DNA from: Methanobrevibacter sp.
Lineage (GTDB): Archaea > Methanobacteriota > Methanobacteria > Methanobacteriales > Methanobacteriaceae
Reading direction: 5' to 3'
DNA: 64,000 bases
Assembly: GCF_017431965.1 (NCBI RefSeq)
Contig: NZ_JAFRKB010000049.1
Location: 1-64,000 of the forward strand
Numbering within the stretch: the first letter of the stretch is position 1; every line of letters begins with the position of its first letter. Below the pieces are notes generated by a model. The model did no database searches. It saw only the letters and a list, made by a program, of their open reading frames with translations, and was not told the origin of the DNA. Below, piece by piece: positions 27,082 to 44,085 of this stretch. The translations under genes and the position numbers were made by a program.

Positions 27082-27570
27082 ATGAGCGAACTTAAAGAAT
27101 TAGTGGAAAAATTTATTGAAATTGATGACGATTTGAATGAAAAAATCGAAAATGCTTTGGATGAAAATGATGAACTCGACGACTCCTTTGAAGATGATAA
27201 CAAGGAACAACTTGAACAGTTAGGTGAAATCTACCATGAAATCGAACACCAAGTATTCCATGAAGAATTCATCGTCGTATTGAATGCGAACAGTGAAGAT
27301 AAGGAAATTGTAGCATTAATCATTAGTGAAGAAGATGAAGAAAAAGAAGAATTTGTCATTCCTGTTTATACTGATGAAGCGGAAGCTGATGAAGCTATTG
27401 AAGTTTTTAAAGAGCAATTCGGAGAAAATGAATTTATCTGCGATAAGCAAATAGGCAATGAAATCATTAGCGATTATGCTGAAGATGAAGGATTTATTGG
27501 CCTTGCAATCAATGCACCACAATGGGATTTCGTTATCGGTGGTGAAGACGTTCACGATTGTTGTGAGTAA
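27082..27570 (+). CDS. SseB-like protein, acidic, copy 1
   Basis: The 162-residue protein is strongly acidic and shows the SseB N-terminal domain pattern: a strand ending in FVIPVYTDEAEADEAIEVF, then a later strand and the GLAINAPQWDF segment. SseB-like domains are found in bacteria with diverse roles, and their role in methanogens is unknown. AGTGATATT supports the start. Its stop lies two bases before the next SseB-like gene, so the two form an operon. A third copy lies at 33160-33558. Confidence 0.55.
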   Translation: MSELKELVEKFIEIDDDLNEKIENALDENDELDDSFEDDNKEQLEQLGEIYHEIEHQVFHEEFIVVLNANSEDKEIVALIISEEDEEKEEFVIPVYTDEAEADEAIEVFKEQFGENEFICDKQIGNEIISDYAEDEGFIGLAINAPQWDFVIGGEDVHDCCE

Positions 27571-27572
27571 AT

Positions 27573-28016
27573 ATGAACCCTAAAGATTATGAAGATTATC
27601 AAAAAAACAATGTGAAAGCTTCCAAAAGCCAGCTTAAAGACTATATCCAAATCTATGCGGATATGGCTAAAAAGCTTAAAACCGAAGATGCAGTTGAGCT
27701 TGAAGCTGTTAAGGCAAACATCAAAAATACATATCCCAAAGAGATTTACTTTACTTTGGTTGATGAAATAGACAGACCAGTTAAACTAACTCTAACTGAG
27801 GCAAGCAAGGAATATATCATCCCAATATTTACAGACATTAGGGAATATGCTGTTGGAAGCGCTAAAATATCTGGCTTATTTTTAGATAAATTGGAAATGA
27901 AAGTTTTAACTCCAGAGGATATTTCTAAAATGGCTGATGAGGATGAGCATTTCCAAGGTTTTGTAATAAATCCGCATTCACAAAACTTCAATATGGACAG
28001 AAACGGAAATTTTTAG
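27573..28016 (+). CDS. SseB-like protein, copy 2
   Basis: The 147-residue protein shares with its upstream neighbour the strand-turn KEYIIPIFTDIREYAVG and a final FQGFVINPHSQNF. It is more basic at the N-terminus (KASKSQLKDYIQIY). The role is unknown; the pair may form a heterodimer. It ends seven bases before the convergent ATP-grasp gene. Confidence 0.55.
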   Translation: MNPKDYEDYQKNNVKASKSQLKDYIQIYADMAKKLKTEDAVELEAVKANIKNTYPKEIYFTLVDEIDRPVKLTLTEASKEYIIPIFTDIREYAVGSAKISGLFLDKLEMKVLTPEDISKMADEDEHFQGFVINPHSQNFNMDRNGNF

Positions 28017-28022
28017 AATTCA

Positions 28023-29717
28023 TTATCTTTTAGATGCTATAATCATTCTTGGCATATGGTGCAAAGGCAATTCTATTTTTAAATCCAAAGACTTAATTAA
28101 GGCTTCTGCACCAACTCTTGAATTAGGCATGAATTCATAAGTTGTCTTTGGAACAATGATCAAACCGCCTACTTTAACTTTATCCAAGATTTCCAAAAAT
28201 ATACTTACAGTACCATAATCCTGTATATCTAATAAACTTTTGTTTAAATTAACAATGACACAATCAAATTTTCCGTTAAGCTCTTTTATATTTTCAGGAC
28301 TCACTTGCAATATATTTAAATCTTCAAACACATTGTCTGTAACCAATAATCCTGTTCCATATGTAGTAGCCTGATTACATAGAGATTCAATGTCCCTATA
28401 AATTTCATCCTGCTCAACAGGAATTTCGTTGTCATCTTCTTCACTCAATACCAATTGAAAGGCTTTTCTTTCAATATCACGTAAAAGATTAACATCTTTA
28501 TAAACCTGATATGGATCTTCATGAACTAAATAAACATCCCCACAGCTTGTTTCCAGGTCTTGTGTTTTTAAAAATGGTTGAACCTCGGTTATTTGAGTAA
28601 TCATGGTTTTATAATGACTTTTTAATTTGGTGCTGATATTTTCAATTGGTGCAGACTTGGCAATCATATCCTTTGGAACAATGAAAGATTTGATGACCCC
28701 CTTGGCAAATAGCTCATATTTCTTTTTTCGTTCATGATTAAATTTATCCGGATTTAAATAGGAATCCAGACAACTGTCGGTTTCATGCTGACCGGAAATC
28801 TTATCTAAAAAATTTGCCTCCAAATTACCTCCATGCGGCCTGCAATTCACCTCAATTAAAACAGGCCCATTTTCATCAACCATATACTCTCCATGAACTG
28901 GACCATATTGAATTCCTAAAGCATCGCAAACATCATATGCATATTCTACAAGTTCTGATTCGCCAAGAGACAATTCATCAACAGTTTCATCATAATCATA
29001 AATATGGCCCCCTTCAGATGTATTTACCTTATTATACTTCCAGATTGTAGTTACACGATGAATGCCCTTGCAGGATACAGTATTTACCACATATTCCACA
29101 CCATCAATAAATTCCTGAATTAATATGCCATTTATATCATTTCCATAAACACCCTTCAATGAAAACAATTCATCAATATCCCTAATCATCTCCTGTTTAT
29201 TCATACAAATCTTAACACCAACAGATGCCGCACTGTAAACAGGTTTTACAACAACTTTTTTCAAGCCTTCCCTTTCATAATAATCAATGGCTTCCTCCAC
29301 TGATTTGACAACGCTTCCCTTAATGTAGCGAAGACCGTTTTCAGCCAATCTATTATGCATTTCATCTTTTAAAGTCATCGCATCAATATTTTCAATAGGA
29401 TTGCATAAAAGATTCAAATCATTGGATAATTTGGTAGCCAGTATGACCCCTTCTTCAGTTCCGGGAACAATCAATAATGGATCATATGCCTTAACCATTT
29501 CAAGTGTTTCTTCATAGGAATCCTTTTCATAAATCAACTCAAAATCATTATCTATTAAATCATAGCAACTTCTAACTTCTTCGAGGTAATGCCTTGCTTC
29601 ATCGGAGTCATTTTGAAGCTTCAATTCCAAAATAATGGGATTGTGATTTCTATCGATAATGTCTTGAACATAATTAATACCCGTTGACATGCATTGAACA
29701 ATGATTATATTACTCAT
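28023..29717 (-). CDS. ATP-grasp ligase with C-terminal methyltransferase-like domain
   Basis: The start ATG 29717 follows AAGTGATAATC (564 residues). The ATP-grasp core spans residues 100-310: VVVKPVYSAASVGVKI (ATP-binding lysine strand), ILIQEFIDGVEYVVNT, and VLIEVNCRPHGG with the metal-binding Glu and Asn. The RPHGG ending resembles carboxylate-amine ligases of the BacD/carnosine synthase group. Residues 430-564 look like a Rossmann fold with FDCVIVNLNKS and KVKVGGLIIVPK, as in the C-terminal half of methyltransferases, but motif I is lost. It would ligate two carboxylate/amine substrates, perhaps amino acids. It follows the MATE-type transporter by 56 bases on the same strand. Confidence 0.75.
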   Translation of the reverse strand: MSNIIIVQCMSTGINYVQDIIDRNHNPIILELKLQNDSDEARHYLEEVRSCYDLIDNDFELIYEKDSYEETLEMVKAYDPLLIVPGTEEGVILATKLSNDLNLLCNPIENIDAMTLKDEMHNRLAENGLRYIKGSVVKSVEEAIDYYEREGLKKVVVKPVYSAASVGVKICMNKQEMIRDIDELFSLKGVYGNDINGILIQEFIDGVEYVVNTVSCKGIHRVTTIWKYNKVNTSEGGHIYDYDETVDELSLGESELVEYAYDVCDALGIQYGPVHGEYMVDENGPVLIEVNCRPHGGNLEANFLDKISGQHETDSCLDSYLNPDKFNHERKKKYELFAKGVIKSFIVPKDMIAKSAPIENISTKLKSHYKTMITQITEVQPFLKTQDLETSCGDVYLVHEDPYQVYKDVNLLRDIERKAFQLVLSEEDDNEIPVEQDEIYRDIESLCNQATTYGTGLLVTDNVFEDLNILQVSPENIKELNGKFDCVIVNLNKSLLDIQDYGTVSIFLEILDKVKVGGLIIVPKTTYEFMPNSRVGAEALIKSLDLKIELPLHHMPRMIIASKR

Positions 29718-29773
29718 GATTATCACTTATTTGGAAATATTTAAGAATGAAATAATATTAATTTATTTTCTTT

Positions 29774-31501
29774 TTAATTTTTAATTGTAATTACAGTATT
29801 GTTTAAACCTAAAATTTGAGAAAACTCTATATCATCGGCTATTTCATTTAATTTTGAAATATATCCAGAGTCTAAATCAATATTCTCCTTTGGATTGTAG
29901 CTAATTCCAGAATTTTTAATTGAAATTCTTATAGAATCATCTTTTTCACGAATTATTATATCAATGAAATCCACCTTTTCGTTTGCATCAATAATATAAA
30001 ATACAATATCCTCAATAGCCGAACTTACATTATAGGCAAATCTGGAATCAGATAAAAACTTTTTAACCTCCCCTGATAAGTTAATGGCATCCTCTTTACT
30101 TCCCTCAATTGTAAATTCAAACCTGCGCTCATTATCATCATAACGTCTATTCAGGAAGAATCCAGAATATTCGCCCTCTGTCTTTCGGGCAACATATTTG
30201 GAATATATGAAAATGAACAATAATGTCAATATTTCAGCCGCTGCGAATGAAATCCAAAAGCCGTTCACGCCAAAGAGGCCTGACAATACATATGCTAAAA
30301 TCACAGGAAGAATAAATCCTTCAAGAAGTATGATTAAATTCGCCAATTTATTAAACTCCACGGACTGGGCATAGAATAAATACATGTAATTTATGCTGAA
30401 TCCTAAAATACTTAAAGAAAATATTCTAATAACATTCAACACCGTAGGAATATAATTTGGATTGGTTACATTGAATATGAACAATACTGTTTGCGGGAAA
30501 ATTAAAAACAGCAACGTGAAGAATATTCCGAATGCAAGAACTATCTTTAGGGACTTACCGACAACATACTTTACACCATTATAATCCTCTTCATTATAAT
30601 AAACCGTTACAATAGGCAAAAGTGCCTGAGAAGTGCCTAGAATGAATATTTCCACCAAAAATAAAGTGTTCTGACACATGTTCAATGCTGAAAGACCAAG
30701 TTCTGCCAAATATATGCTTATCAATGCATTCAAAAATAAAAATTTTAACGCTATATACAAAGGTATTGAAGAAATTGAGAATCCCGCTTTACAAATACCT
30801 GCCAAATAGCCTGTTAGCTGTGAAAATTTTACTTTAATAAATTTTAATGACCTTTGAGGATTGAAGAAATATATGGTGATATAAATTGCCGATGCAACTG
30901 AACCTAAAGTGAGTGCAAGTCCCGCACCTGAAATTCCCAAGTTTAAAAACTTCATAAATACTACATCAAGGATCATATTTAGGAGATTGCAAATTAAAAA
31001 AGCATTGAATTGTAGTTTAATAAAACCATCTGTTTTAACGAAATAAGATAAACATGCCATATATGACATGAATAAAAATCCAGGAATGACCATGTAATAA
31101 TATTGACTGATAAGAGGTTTCAAGAGATTTGAACCTGATAACGACCCAATTATGAAATCTGGAAAAACATAACAGAACAATGTCAGACATAAAATGGCGA
31201 TTAGCGTAGTTACAATTGAAATCGTAAATATTGCATTTGCCTTGTCATCATCAAAATCCGTTTTTGCACCTGTACATAAAATACTGCCGCCTATTCCCAT
31301 CATCCAATAGATTACATTTTCAAAAGACAACAAAGGTTGCATGCTTTGAACAACAGACAAATATATGGGTCCCATAAAAAGGCTAATGAAAAATGCATCT
31401 ACAATAATTGCAAAATTGCCTGCAATTGATGCCATCAATGTTGGAAAAAACAATTTTTTGAAGTTCTTATTCAATAGCTTAAAATTTCTCTCATATACCA
31501 T
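29774..31501 (-). CDS. MATE family efflux transporter with C-terminal HATPase-like domain
   Basis: ATG 31501 gives 575 residues; the longer TTG-started frame adds only a hydrophilic tail. Twelve membrane segments fill residues 15-440, as in MATE multidrug/metabolite antiporters. A soluble C-terminal domain of about 120 residues follows, with an RsbW-like HATPase pattern: SAIEDIVFYII for the N box, IRISIKNSGISYNP for the G1 box and LDSGYISKLNEIADDIEF after it. The key N of the N box and the D of the G1 box (here N) are lost, so ATP hydrolysis is doubtful. It may be a ligand-binding regulatory tail. The next gene downstream is the ATP-grasp ligase. Confidence 0.8.
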   Translation of the reverse strand: MVYERNFKLLNKNFKKLFFPTLMASIAGNFAIIVDAFFISLFMGPIYLSVVQSMQPLLSFENVIYWMMGIGGSILCTGAKTDFDDDKANAIFTISIVTTLIAILCLTLFCYVFPDFIIGSLSGSNLLKPLISQYYYMVIPGFLFMSYMACLSYFVKTDGFIKLQFNAFLICNLLNMILDVVFMKFLNLGISGAGLALTLGSVASAIYITIYFFNPQRSLKFIKVKFSQLTGYLAGICKAGFSISSIPLYIALKFLFLNALISIYLAELGLSALNMCQNTLFLVEIFILGTSQALLPIVTVYYNEEDYNGVKYVVGKSLKIVLAFGIFFTLLFLIFPQTVLFIFNVTNPNYIPTVLNVIRIFSLSILGFSINYMYLFYAQSVEFNKLANLIILLEGFILPVILAYVLSGLFGVNGFWISFAAAEILTLLFIFIYSKYVARKTEGEYSGFFLNRRYDDNERRFEFTIEGSKEDAINLSGEVKKFLSDSRFAYNVSSAIEDIVFYIIDANEKVDFIDIIIREKDDSIRISIKNSGISYNPKENIDLDSGYISKLNEIADDIEFSQILGLNNTVITIKN

Positions 31502-33159: not shown

Positions 33160-33558
33160 ATGATGAAATTAGAAGAAGTAAAACATCCTGAGCTTAAAAA
33201 TCATATAAATATGATTTATATGCATAGCGAAAATCAAAATCAGGAAGCTATTGAAAGAACTGAAAACGAAATAAAAGAATATATCTCCGATAAAGAGTTC
33301 ATAATATCCATTGAAGACAATGAACCCGTAAGAATCCCATATGGCAATGATGGCAAATATATCGTTCCCATCTTTACTGATGCTTTGGAGTATGAAAACG
33401 GAATGCAGTATTTCTCATTGAATGTAATGGATGAAAATAAGGAGTATATTATTGAAAAACTGGATTACTTTAAAAAATTAAAAGAAGATCCTAATTTCTT
33501 AGGATACTTGGTTAATATTGCAAGAGTAAGTTATATCATCAACATTACTCTTATTTAG
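33160..33558 (+). CDS. SseB-like protein, copy 3
   Basis: The 132-residue protein carries the same GKYIVPIFTDALEYENG motif as the pair at 27082-28016. Its end, FLGYLVNIARVSYIINITLI, is hydrophobic and differs from the usual NP..F finish, so it may have been altered near the C-terminus. It begins three bases after the msrAB stop, in an operon with it. The last eight bases overlap the convergent Mrp gene. Confidence 0.55.
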   Translation: MMKLEEVKHPELKNHINMIYMHSENQNQEAIERTENEIKEYISDKEFIISIEDNEPVRIPYGNDGKYIVPIFTDALEYENGMQYFSLNVMDENKEYIIEKLDYFKKLKEDPNFLGYLVNIARVSYIINITLI

Positions 33559-36662: not shown

Positions 36663-39600
36663 TTAATCTTTAATAATGTTTATCGATACGCTTGATCCAG
36701 CATATTTGCTGTTTCCAGCATATGAACTGCCGACAGAATATTGACTTGAATCCAAATCTGCAACTGAAATTATAGCTTGGCCTTCCTTATTTGTTTTTAC
36801 AACAGTTTTTTCACCATTTAAATTAAAGGCGATGTTTGCACCTTTGATAGCGTTACCTGTTTCAGCGTTGATTAAGGTAGACACCAATTCTTCAGTTTGT
36901 TTCTTATATACTGTGAAAAGGCAAGTTGATATCTTATTTTCCACCACATTTAGTTTTGCGGTTGATTTGAGATATTTGTTGTTTCCACCATAGGAGAAAG
37001 CCGCAGAAAAAGTTTTTAAATCTGTATCATTGAGTGATAACTTAACTTGTCCCAGTTTATCAGTTTTCAAAGCAGTCTTTACACCCTGGAAATTGATTAC
37101 AACAGTAGCTCCTTTAATAGCATTACCTGTTTCAGCGTTGATTAAAGTAGCGACTAGTTCATTGGTTTCATCGTCATAATATGAGTAAATGCATGTAGAT
37201 ATTTTATTTATGACAACTTCTGAACTTAGGGAATATGGATTATACTTTGCATTACCATTGTAAGAGACAATGACAGTGTATGTTCCTGGAGTCAAATTGG
37301 AAATGGATATTTTGGCTTGACCGCTGGCATTAGTTTTTACTGTGTATTTTTGGCCATTGAGGGTAAATCTTATATTAGCTCCCTTAATAGGCTGACCAGT
37401 AAAATCATTGGTCAATGTGGCAATCAATTCATTATCATCATAAACCGCTGAGATGTTAGTATCCGCTTTAACTGTAAAATCAATACTTGCATCTGATGCA
37501 CCATAGTTATAATTACCTTCATAAGAAGCAATTGCAGTGTAGTTACCCGGAGCAAAGTCTTTTGTTGAAAGTTTAGCCTGACCTGCAAAATTAGTTTCGG
37601 CTATGAAACTCTCATCACCAACATCGAACACAACATCGGCATCGGCAATTACATCACCCTCTTCATCAGTTAAAGTAGCTACCAGCATGCCATTTGCATT
37701 GTAATAGGCAGCTATGAGATAAGTGTCTTGTTTTTCAGGCGCCTCATCAACTGTATAAACCTTTATAGAACAAACTTTATCTTTATCAGATGCATTAACC
37801 CATTTGCCATCAACAACATATTGTGAGAATCCTTTTATATAATGTTGTCTTGAACCTATCATAGTTGGAACTGAATTTGATTTAATTTTAACGGCAAATA
37901 TATCCCCTTCCATAATAGGAATGTATGAATCCAATTGAATTGTATGGAATCCGAAAAATGGGGAAACACCACTCTGATTGAGTTTTAAAACATCATTGAC
38001 ATAAATTTCAACACAATATTCCACATCAGAATCATCGAAGTAAGTTCCAACACCTGCAATATAATCATCTTCAACGGCTACAAATATGTTTGCATATTCC
38101 TTTACAGAATCATTAAACTCAAGATAACCGCCAATGTCATATTGATAATTTTTATTGTAATCAACAGTATTCTCAAGTATAAATCCAAGAGAAACCAATT
38201 CAGTTGAAAAAGTCTGGTCATAATATGAGATATAATAATAACCCTCGTCTCCAGAACTTTCACCCCAACTGTTTTTAATTATCCATGCTCCATCACCAGG
38301 AGGTGTGATTAAAAAGTTTTTTGCAGAATATGAATCGTCCCAGCCAACTAATGTAACAGCATGATCTAGAGATAAATTTTTATTGCAATATTGTGATGAA
38401 GTTTTCTCATTTAAATAAGGAGTTTCTTGAGCAGCATAATATGTAACAGCTAAAGCACCGTATTTTAAAAGTGCTTCTTTTAAAGGAATATTGTCAGTTA
38501 CATTTTTACGAATAGGTATTAAAACCACATCTTGAAAATGAATACTGTCTTCCGCGACAATAATCGGTGAAGTTTTTCCAAGTTGGTCATAATCATCATA
38601 ATCAGATGAAAACACACCAAACCAGCTTAAAGCATATGCAGCTCCTGCCAAAACGGGTCCTCCTTCTACCATTCTTGTTGATCCATATTTGGAATACTGT
38701 AATGAAAGGTCCTGCATGTTATTTTCAGAAATATCTATTTCAAGTCCCAAATATCTCAATACAGCAGATTCTATGGCCCCAGTAGTTCCAAATGCCCAAC
38801 ATGAACCCATATAGCCTTGATCTGCGACAGGAGAGACCCATCCCCAGTCACGCAAGTCAAATTTTGAAGGAAGTGAAGTCACATCAATTGTATTGTTGAT
38901 TAAACTCAATTCCATTCCTGTAGCATTGATTATTGTTTCATAGTTTGTATTATTCAAACTGACAGAACCAATGCCACTATAGACGTTATTTTTTAAAAAA
39001 GCATAACCCATATCAAATTCAGAGAAAATATCATCATAACTTTCATTTGCATTGAAATTATTGTTAAAAAAACTGTTTACAACATAATAATTTGAATCAT
39101 ATAGGTAGATTGCACCGCCGATTTTAGCATAGCTATTGGTTAATGTGGAATTTATAAAATTAAAGCCACCCATATCACAAAATATTGTACCGCCATAAGT
39201 GCTTCTATCAGTGCCGTCATACTGTACCCAATTTTCATCAAATACTGAATTCATAAGTTGAAGTGTAGCATAAGAAGAATAAATTGCGCCCCCGTCAAAT
39301 AATGCTGAGTTATTTGTGAAATTACAGTTATCCACAAAAAGACGACTGCCATATTGCATTATGGCTCCACCAAATTCAGAATAGGAATCAACAAACAGAG
39401 AATTATTAATCAACACTGTTTTATTATAATCCGGATCATTTATATCTACAAGTATTACCCCACCATTTTTCTCGGAAGTGACGTTTATAAAAATACAATT
39501 ATCAATAAAACATTCATCTGCCTTTTTTACTGCGATAGCCCCTGCACTAAAAACAGCATGCAAGTTAATGAATTTGGAATTTTCAATTCTTGCTGTTTTA

Positions 39601-40322
39601 CCACTGTAAACTGCAGTGGAATACTTTGAAGTAGTATTTGCAAATGTTGAGTTGAAAACATATATGGAAGAATTTTGATAGTCATAAATAAATCCCCAAG
39701 ACAACTCTTTTGAGCTCATCATCAATGCATTATTGATGATTGCATTGGAATTGTACAGGGATATGACTCCCATATCAGTTGTTGTTGAATCCAAGAATTT
39801 ATCATCATTACTAAAATAATACCCCCTTGAAAAAACTATACCATACCTTGCAGTATTGTTCTCAAAAGTCACATTGTTTGTTGTTACTTCACTGCCGGCC
39901 ATAATGTTTAAAGCACTACCTACTCCAGAGTTAGCATTTACAAAAATAAGGTCATTTATAGTCACGTTATTTCCAGAAATTGTAAAAATTCCAGATTGGT
40001 TATTTCCATCAATTGTATAACCGTTACCATTGATAACAAAATTATTCTTTGAAATAACAACTGAATTTTCTTCATCGGTTTCATCATCGAATATGTAATC
40101 CCTTTCAACTTCAAAAACATCACCAGAATTACGAATATCGTTCATCAAATCCGTGAAAGAACCCGCATCATCAGTTAAATAAACATTTTTCTCCCCTATT
40201 TCTAAAGTGCAGTTATCCGCATCAAGAACACTATCTTCAGAAATCGTATCAGATGCGCTAACCGCTCCAATAGATAAAATAGCTAATATTAAAAAAACTA
40301 TTAAAATTAACTTAAATTTCAT
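36663..40322 (-). CDS. Secreted adhesin-like protein: beta-helix, papain-type protease and Ig-like repeats
   Basis: The 1219-residue protein begins with a signal peptide (FKLILIVFLILAILSIGAVSA). Residues 80-470 form a right-handed parallel beta-helix with repeated NNVTI and short Asn-rich rungs. A papain-like C1A domain follows: catalytic Cys508 in GSCWAF, His654 in LDHAVTLVGW and Asn684 in KNSWGE. A lectin-like domain (residues 715-850) precedes four Ig-like repeats of about 88 residues with ETGNAIKGA/ NKEGQA motifs. It is probably an outer-surface protease that binds polymers or host or bacterial partners. No LPxTG or membrane anchor is seen. SD GTGATAATATG. Confidence 0.85.
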   Translation of the reverse strand: MKFKLILIVFLILAILSIGAVSASDTISEDSVLDADNCTLEIGEKNVYLTDDAGSFTDLMNDIRNSGDVFEVERDYIFDDETDEENSVVISKNNFVINGNGYTIDGNNQSGIFTISGNNVTINDLIFVNANSGVGSALNIMAGSEVTTNNVTFENNTARYGIVFSRGYYFSNDDKFLDSTTTDMGVISLYNSNAIINNALMMSSKELSWGFIYDYQNSSIYVFNSTFANTTSKYSTAVYSGKTARIENSKFINLHAVFSAGAIAVKKADECFIDNCIFINVTSEKNGGVILVDINDPDYNKTVLINNSLFVDSYSEFGGAIMQYGSRLFVDNCNFTNNSALFDGGAIYSSYATLQLMNSVFDENWVQYDGTDRSTYGGTIFCDMGGFNFINSTLTNSYAKIGGAIYLYDSNYYVVNSFFNNNFNANESYDDIFSEFDMGYAFLKNNVYSGIGSVSLNNTNYETIINATGMELSLINNTIDVTSLPSKFDLRDWGWVSPVADQGYMGSCWAFGTTGAIESAVLRYLGLEIDISENNMQDLSLQYSKYGSTRMVEGGPVLAGAAYALSWFGVFSSDYDDYDQLGKTSPIIVAEDSIHFQDVVLIPIRKNVTDNIPLKEALLKYGALAVTYYAAQETPYLNEKTSSQYCNKNLSLDHAVTLVGWDDSYSAKNFLITPPGDGAWIIKNSWGESSGDEGYYYISYYDQTFSTELVSLGFILENTVDYNKNYQYDIGGYLEFNDSVKEYANIFVAVEDDYIAGVGTYFDDSDVEYCVEIYVNDVLKLNQSGVSPFFGFHTIQLDSYIPIMEGDIFAVKIKSNSVPTMIGSRQHYIKGFSQYVVDGKWVNASDKDKVCSIKVYTVDEAPEKQDTYLIAAYYNANGMLVATLTDEEGDVIADADVVFDVGDESFIAETNFAGQAKLSTKDFAPGNYTAIASYEGNYNYGASDASIDFTVKADTNISAVYDDNELIATLTNDFTGQPIKGANIRFTLNGQKYTVKTNASGQAKISISNLTPGTYTVIVSYNGNAKYNPYSLSSEVVINKISTCIYSYYDDETNELVATLINAETGNAIKGATVVINFQGVKTALKTDKLGQVKLSLNDTDLKTFSAAFSYGGNNKYLKSTAKLNVVENKISTCLFTVYKKQTEELVSTLINAETGNAIKGANIAFNLNGEKTVVKTNKEGQAIISVADLDSSQYSVGSSYAGNSKYAGSSVSINIIKD

Positions 40323-42717: not shown

Positions 42718-44085
42718 TTATTTAAAATAATCCCTATGTTTGTTCAAATAGTAATTGATATATACATATCCGATTACAGAACCGGTTGCCATTCCACAAA
42801 CAAGACCGGAATAAAGGCCAACAAGACCAAAACCTAAGACAAATGCAAACAATCCTCCAAACAACACTTCCATTATAAATGACCTCAATATTGTTAAAGA
42901 TAAAGCCATAGTTCCCTTTCCCATGGCCTGGAAAATATTTCCTGCAAGAACCCCAAAAGGCATCAGCAATATAAAGAAGCATAATATCCGTAGCGCTTCG
43001 ACAATATTCGAAGCCAAAACGGAGCTGTCAGCTGAATATGTAAATATGAATGATAACGGACCTGCAAAAATAAAGAAAAATGAGGAAATGACAATTGATG
43101 AAACCAAACCTAATTTAACACCATAATTTAGAGCTGTTTTTAAGTTTACAAGATTACGTGCTCCATAAGCCGCACCACCCACCGTAAGGGCTGCAACACC
43201 AACACCAATAATAGGAGACATTCCAATTGAAACCAATCTCCAGGTCGCTGTATATGCAGCAACGGCAAGGGTTCCGCCTAAAATTGTAATCCAATAATTG
43301 AACAATATGGATACGAAGGAAATGATAAACTGTTCCAAACTTGCAGGAATTCCGACTACAAGTATATCCTTATAAATCTGTAAATCTCTTTTATATTCAC
43401 TCATCTTGATTTTCAAAAAGCTATCCTTTTTAATGAACATCCAATAAACCATTGGAGATGCCGCAAGAGCTCCTGCAAGAACTGTTGCAAATGCAGCTCC
43501 TCCCACTCCCCAACCGAGAACGTAAATGAAAATCGGATCCAAAATTATGTTTATGAAAGCTGTTAACATCAAAGGATAAGATGCACGCTTCACCTCACCC
43601 TGCGCTCTGAAAATAGCCGCCATCATTGCCGGCAAGAAAACGGAAAATATTCCTCCGATTACAATGTTACCATACATCAATGTTTCTGAAAGCACTTCAC
43701 CGGCACCCATTATTACTAATAACTGTTTTAAAATGAGCAATATCAGAATAGTTGAGATGACTGTAACGACAATACTAAGTACAATGGAATGAATTGCACT
43801 GTTTCCGGCATTTTCATATTCTTCAGCACCGATATATCTTGCAATCAGGCTGTTTGCACCTGCACCCAAACCATTTGCAAAACCGACAAGCGCCAAAAAT
43901 ACTGGTGTTACAAATCCGACAGCCGCAAGAGGGTTTGGACCCAGTCCTGATACCCAAATACCATCAATGATATTATTAAGCATCATAAATATGTAGCTTA
44001 TGATGATAGGCAAAGCCAACTTATTAATTGCTTTTTTTGGGTGGTTTACAATAAGGTCAATATCTTCTGTCTTGTTTTCCCCCAT
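42718..44085 (-). CDS. MATE family efflux transporter
   Basis: The 455-residue protein has twelve membrane segments and the MATE halves (LALPIISYIFMMLNNIIDG, GLGAGANSLIARYIGAEEYENAGN, YGARNLVNLKTALNYGV). It should export cationic or lipophilic compounds with Na+ or H+. It differs from the transporter at 29774 in lacking the C-terminal HATPase-like tail. GGTGAGTTATG supports the start, and the gene begins four bases after the stop of the cca gene. Confidence 0.9.
   Translation of the reverse strand: MGENKTEDIDLIVNHPKKAINKLALPIIISYIFMMLNNIIDGIWVSGLGPNPLAAVGFVTPVFLALVGFANGLGAGANSLIARYIGAEEYENAGNSAIHSIVLSIVVTVISTILILLILKQLLVIMGAGEVLSETLMYGNIVIGGIFSVFLPAMMAAIFRAQGEVKRASYPLMLTAFINIILDPIFIYVLGWGVGGAAFATVLAGALAASPMVYWMFIKKDSFLKIKMSEYKRDLQIYKDILVVGIPASLEQFIISFVSILFNYWITILGGTLAVAAYTATWRLVSIGMSPIIGVGVAALTVGGAAYGARNLVNLKTALNYGVKLGLVSSIVISSFFFIFAGPLSFIFTYSADSSVLASNIVEALRILCFFILLMPFGVLAGNIFQAMGKGTMALSLTILRSFIMEVLFGGLFAFVLGFGLVGLYSGLVCGMATGSVIGYVYINYYLNKHRDYFK

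Follow-up and report, generated by a model that had tools for sequence, protein, structure and literature searches.

In the bacilysin operon of Bacillus, the ligase BacD is encoded together with the exporter BacE. Secondary metabolism was not associated with methanogens before the discovery of NRPSs in M. ruminantium in 2010. In the parts of that genome report considered here, the clusters of strain M1 bring together an NRPS, a MatE transporter, a serine phosphatase (PP2C) and an anti-sigma-factor antagonist, and export by MatE was proposed (Leahy 2010, PMC2812497). Large NRPS genes near transporters have also been described in M. millerae (PMC4987999).

The stretch of DNA analysed here (64,000 nucleotides from Methanobrevibacter sp., referred to as the window) belongs to a genome of 2.05 Mb in 78 contigs (95% complete, 8% contamination). 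It contains two adjoining genes on the reverse strand, of which the first to be transcribed encodes a MATE-family exporter (29774..31501, (-); 575 aa, ATG at 31501) and the second an ATP-grasp ligase of the L-amino-acid-ligase type (28023..29717, (-); 564 aa). The intergenic gap of 56 bp (29718..29773, (-)), which runs from the MATE stop codon to the ligase ATG and agrees with the spacing given in an earlier note on this DNA, is consistent with an operon. The exporter belongs to a genus-wide family of ~575 aa and matches Pfam MatE over two stretches (1.1e-17; 64.7 bits, cut-off 24.9). It ends in an additional domain (29774..30196, (-)), below called the tail. Three small look-alike open reading frames (27082-27570, 27573-28016 and 33160-33558, (+)), one of them with a weak SseB-domain match, lie on both sides of the pair. 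Elsewhere, the window encodes a second, ordinary MATE of 455 aa (42718-44085, (-)), which has no tail and lies beside the gene for the CCA-adding enzyme, and a papain-family protease of 1219 aa with lectin-like and Ig-like domains (36663-40322, (-)), probably a surface protein.

The pair is probably a two-gene unit for the NRPS-independent synthesis and export of small peptides, with the tail serving as a pseudo-RsbW docking domain and not as an ATP sensor. The ligase would activate the carboxyl group of one amino acid (or a related acid) as an acyl phosphate at the expense of ATP and join it to the amino group of a second amino acid, a chemistry suggested by its family and by its conserved catalytic residues. 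The resulting dipeptide-like product would be exported by the MATE, as suggested by the conserved adjacency of the genes and by analogy with the bac operon and the NRPS loci.

Profile, fold and conserved residues assign the ligase to the L-amino acid (dipeptide) ligase type, with a predicted joining activity. The protein matches Pfam ATP-grasp_4 (1.5e-12) and scores 278 bits against the NCBIfam model PRK07206, itself unnamed in function (just below its cut-off of 302), and 141 bits against that of DdaF (NF041595; far below its cut-off of 840). When a profile of 41 ligase sequences was compared with the PDB, the L-amino acid ligase 30vh ranked first (1.2e-54), followed by BL00235 and BacD; in a Foldseek search with the ligase model (pLDDT 91), ranks 1-4 were occupied by BL00235 (3vot), RizA and BacD. 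Identity to the solved enzymes is 14-17%. The residues of the H-x-E ... E-x-x-x-R ... GG pattern, which comprises the metal glutamates, the catalytic Arg and the GG loop characteristic of these enzymes, align with those of the solved dipeptide ligases and are invariant or nearly so over the 41 archaeal and bacterial ligases, which share 49 invariant columns from Methanobrevibacter to Treponema (including K117, K158, E202, E277, E289, N291 and R293). The RPHGG motif, with which the earlier note had the protein end, is present (family consensus RPMGG) but occupies residues 293-297, where it closes the ATP-grasp core and not the whole protein.

In Pfam and NCBIfam, the ligase also gave weak matches to GARS_A, purD and CPSase. 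A housekeeping enzyme resembling carbamoyl phosphate synthase or PurD, incidentally placed beside a transporter, is nevertheless hardly credible, given the far stronger profile and fold matches to L-amino acid ligases, the patchy distribution with up to nine ligase matches in one genome, and the repeated pairing with exporters. Such an identity was rejected on the ranking by profile and fold, and the ligase groups with the L-amino acid ligases, not with carbamoyl phosphate synthase.

The core of the ligase is followed by a C-terminal domain of 135 aa (28026..28430, (-)) that is common to archaeal and bacterial members (28 aligned) and absent from a 424-aa subgroup. This domain had been taken as methyltransferase-like without motif I. 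The order of its helices and strands fits, which makes half a methyltransferase fold plausible, but the assignment is not established, with one weak Ubie_methyltran match (E 0.0069) in 28 members; profile searches of the PDB and Pfam with this domain gave nothing reliable. No description of ATP-grasp ligases of Methanobrevibacter or of the ligase-MATE pair was found in the open-access literature.

A tailed MATE was detected in 28 of 61 genomes searched, all in this genus, and lies directly after a giant NRPS in most loci. The window protein falls into a clade of 22 MATEs (support 100/100), 21 of which adjoin this ligase, and this clade branches from within the genus's NRPS-linked MATEs. The pair is also carried by a complete 2.54-Mb genome (G013). 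Its conservation, together with the profile and fold of the ligase, supports the proposal of the earlier note that a peptide-ligase-type enzyme and an exporter form a unit.

The ligase itself was found in 27 of 67 genomes of the genus. Paralogs in the window genome adjoin MFS (L015, L017) or ABC (L016) exporters, and several archaeal ligases have no neighbouring exporter, among them the copy on contig C7 of the window genome. On the ligase tree, the archaeal MATE-paired ligases form two groups, one nested among MFS-paired ligases, indicating that exporters have been exchanged while an exporter stays. One locus (L150:5392-15976) appears to be a hybrid NRPS/ligase cluster, in which an NRPS of 1681 aa, three tandem ligases of 424 aa each and a tailed MATE succeed one another on a single strand. 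In another genome (G067), a PP2C-RsbW-STAS set, an NRPS and a MATE are found next to a ligase. Full-length ligases in tandem or in clusters, with no adjoining exporter, were seen at L125:6231-13308 and L124, including four in a row, on two strands, in G028.

In a scan of bacterial and archaeal genomes, the full-length ligase was also detected in Lachnospiraceae, Selenomonadaceae, Treponema and other Spirochaetaceae, and Bacteroidales, largely in rumen or gut samples where the record tells the source. In rumen Lachnospiraceae, Selenomonadaceae and Treponema/Spirochaetaceae, full-length ligases of 37-42% identity adjoin another lineage of tailed MATEs. Ligase and tailed MATE are neighbours in 12 of the 22 bacterial loci, including most of those from Bacillota and Spirochaetota (MATEs of 578-598 aa); no adjoining tailed MATE was found at the three Bacteroidales ligase loci. 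The MATE gene comes first in the window, the ligase gene in the other archaeal pairs and either of them in bacteria, adjacency being kept throughout. In three Treponema loci (L230, L231, L242), the ligase is directly followed by an 800-aa protein matching NRPS adenylation domains; at L230, a tailed MATE also precedes the ligase.

When the tree is built from the membrane core alone, the ligase-linked MATEs of archaea do not group with those of bacteria, so the ligase family has been joined to tailed MATEs at least twice. Forcing the two together gave a tree 65 log units worse (AU p=7.5e-5, for a group defined after the tree had been seen), and a single origin of the archaeal and bacterial pairs by joint transfer is rejected on the MATE tree. 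That the same kind of pair occurs in unrelated rumen bacteria suggests a common strategy for producing small secreted peptides.

These distributions also bear on a role in envelope building, in which the ligase would attach an amino acid to a precursor of pseudomurein and the MATE would move this precursor across the membrane; the MOP superfamily, to which the MATE belongs, also includes lipid flippases. Methanobrevibacter has pseudomurein, and its candidate pseudomurein genes include ATP-grasp enzymes (PMC11915815). Such a role is nonetheless very unlikely: the ligase is accessory within the genus, and the same pair occurs in Lachnospiraceae, Selenomonadaceae and Treponema, all of which lack pseudomurein. 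Moreover, the MATE clade is otherwise NRPS-linked, the protein matches MatE, and its partner is of the dipeptide-ligase type. Patchy distribution and bacterial homologues thus disfavour a pseudomurein enzyme, and synthesis and export of a small peptide is retained as the preferred reading.

The tail of the window MATE comprises ~130 residues. It had no match in Pfam and did not reach the HATPase_c_2 cut-off; among relatives whose tails were aligned (n=32), HATPase_c_2 is matched by 18 (best 1.1e-6) and HATPase_c by 13. With PF13581, a search of the genus retrieved the C-termini of dozens of MATEs, which score 20-29 bits and in a few cases exceed the cut-off of 27.4. An AlphaFold model built from the window tail and 22 relatives (pLDDT 80, pTM 0.73) has the element order strand-helix-helix-strand-strand-helix-strand-strand, that is, a GHKL fold with RsbW-like order, and among PDB structures Foldseek ranks SpoIIAB, UsfX and RsbW as its best matches (E from 1.8e-6, probability 1.00, TM ~0.65). 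When the tail was compared with the PDB by sequence profile alone, only chance matches were returned, so the fold assignment rests on the model and on the Pfam matches of the relatives. The RsbW/HATPase pattern read from the sequence in the earlier note was thereby borne out, and no unrelated fold emerged. The same holds for the loss of the two motif residues: the N-box reads EDIVFYII (Asn to Tyr) and the G1 box IKNSG (Asp to Asn). With both replaced, the tail is predicted to be a pseudo-RsbW domain that is unlikely to bind Mg-ATP in the usual way, and the suggestion that it acts as an ATP sensor becomes unlikely for the same reason.

Fusion of this kind had been considered unusual in domain order, which proved incorrect. 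The tailed architecture is widespread: many MATEs of rumen bacteria and archaea (560-630 aa) have it, and in this genus most of them are linked to an NRPS. In rumen bacteria (L279-L298), MATEs of 566-605 aa with RsbW-like tails form a large family, many with intact N-box and G1 motifs, and some bacterial RsbW-tailed MATEs lie near PP2C genes (L280, L287, L290, L296). The MATE-RsbW fusion seems to be widespread in gut bacteria, as judged from the genomes surveyed; no description of it was found in the open-access literature.

The nucleotide-binding residues differ with genomic context. NRPS-linked MATE tails mostly keep the N-box and G1 motifs. The bacterial ligase-linked tails have lost the N-box Asn (replaced by Tyr or Phe) and the G1 Asp, both of which are mostly kept in the remaining tailed MATEs of these genomes, NRPS-linked ones included. 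A strict link between motif loss and a ligase partner was considered and is suggestive only. The correlation is not proven: both residues survive in one member of the ligase clade (L048) and are missing from some NRPS- or PP2C-linked MATEs (losses in MATEs without a ligase partner: L081, L083, L290, L296), and the events are too few for an independent-pairs comparison.

Genes for PP2C, RsbW or STAS proteins lie within 15 kb (<=15 kb) of 22 of 30 NRPS-MATE loci of the genus and of 1 of 14 ligase-MATE loci (Fisher p 5e-5, ignoring relatedness). Two contigs in this comparison have approximate lengths, which play no part in the test. None was found near the window pair; they are present elsewhere in the window genome, where STAS, RsbW and PP2C genes on contig C20 are divergent from a 2190-aa NRPS (L243:5721-14919). 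The exporters downstream of that NRPS look like ABC proteins, not like a tailed MATE. The simplest history suggested by these loci is that the ligase recruited a tailed MATE that had served an NRPS, that the regulators were left behind, and that the tail then lost its nucleotide-binding residues.

Repeated loss of the N-box Asn and G1 Asp and the disappearance of the neighbouring regulators could mean that the tail is a functionless vestige of an NRPS-linked ancestor. We judge this improbable. In pairs of close relatives from the ligase-linked clade, dN/dS is 0.08-0.23 for the tail and 0.08-0.18 for the membrane core; with values of ~0.1-0.2 close to those of the core, the dead domain is kept by purifying selection. 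In addition, a full-length tail is retained in 20 of the 22 MATEs of the clade, the window protein included (exceptions: L123, L141), and dead tails are also kept across the bacterial ligase-linked MATEs.

A second alternative, which we regard as possible but unlikely, is that the tail controls the pump by partner switching: it would still bind a STAS protein (phosphorylated elsewhere) and thereby open or close the exporter, with the RsbW, STAS and PP2C proteins of NRPS loci acting in trans. In its favour, the fold of the tail is that of SpoIIAB and RsbW, which have been solved mostly in complex with STAS antagonists, the window genome has a STAS-RsbW-PP2C set beside the NRPS on C20, and the tail is under purifying selection. 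To our knowledge, archaea are without sigma factors, so a module of this type would have none to regulate, and a pump fused to it would be an obvious target. This alternative is weakened by the loss of the kinase residues from the tail and by the presence of STAS, RsbW or PP2C genes near no more than one of 14 ligase-MATE loci. In the ligase-linked exporters, the tail is instead read as a relative of RsbW/SpoIIAB that is catalytically dead and descends from the tails of NRPS-linked exporters; it most likely no longer binds ATP and would give the pump a surface on its cytosolic side for docking, dimerisation or gating. A broader idea, which we put forward as doubtful speculation, is that bacterial-type partner switching in archaea has been rerouted from transcription to transport, with MATE-fused RsbW-like domains gating the release of small peptides; in exporters serving a ligase and not an NRPS, the domain would have turned, separately in archaea and in rumen bacteria, into a docking module that is dead yet conserved.

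If the proposed unit is correct, a second, NRPS-independent peptide route operates on the same exporter family and is common to rumen bacteria of other phyla; small secreted peptides would then be a common currency in the rumen, with methanogens taking part. A system of two genes is easy to express and test, and through the tail it can be tested directly which processes RsbW/STAS/PP2C modules control where sigma factors are lacking.

Compared with the M. ruminantium M1 clusters, in which MatE stands beside an NRPS, a place taken by the tailed MATE in related genomes, the window has an ATP-grasp ligase instead of the NRPS and no regulators; the parts of the M1 report considered here make no mention of an RsbW-like tail on the MATE (PMC2812497). 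With DdaF (dapdiamide A synthase) and PRK07206, the window ligase shares a domain over residues ~2-425, whereas it scores below both curated cut-offs and its full-length form adds the C-terminal domain. The anti-sigma kinases RsbW, SpoIIAB and UsfX have the same predicted fold and element order as the tail, which differs in being fused to a transporter, in having lost the N-box Asn and G1 Asp, and in residing in an archaeal host without sigma factors. BacD (YwfE), RizA and BL00235 share their ATP-grasp dipeptide-ligase fold and catalytic residues with the window ligase. In contrast to the bacilysin system, the window exporter is a MATE with a pseudo-RsbW tail and not an MFS protein, the pair lacks adjoining precursor-making genes, and the ligase carries the additional domain of 135 aa.
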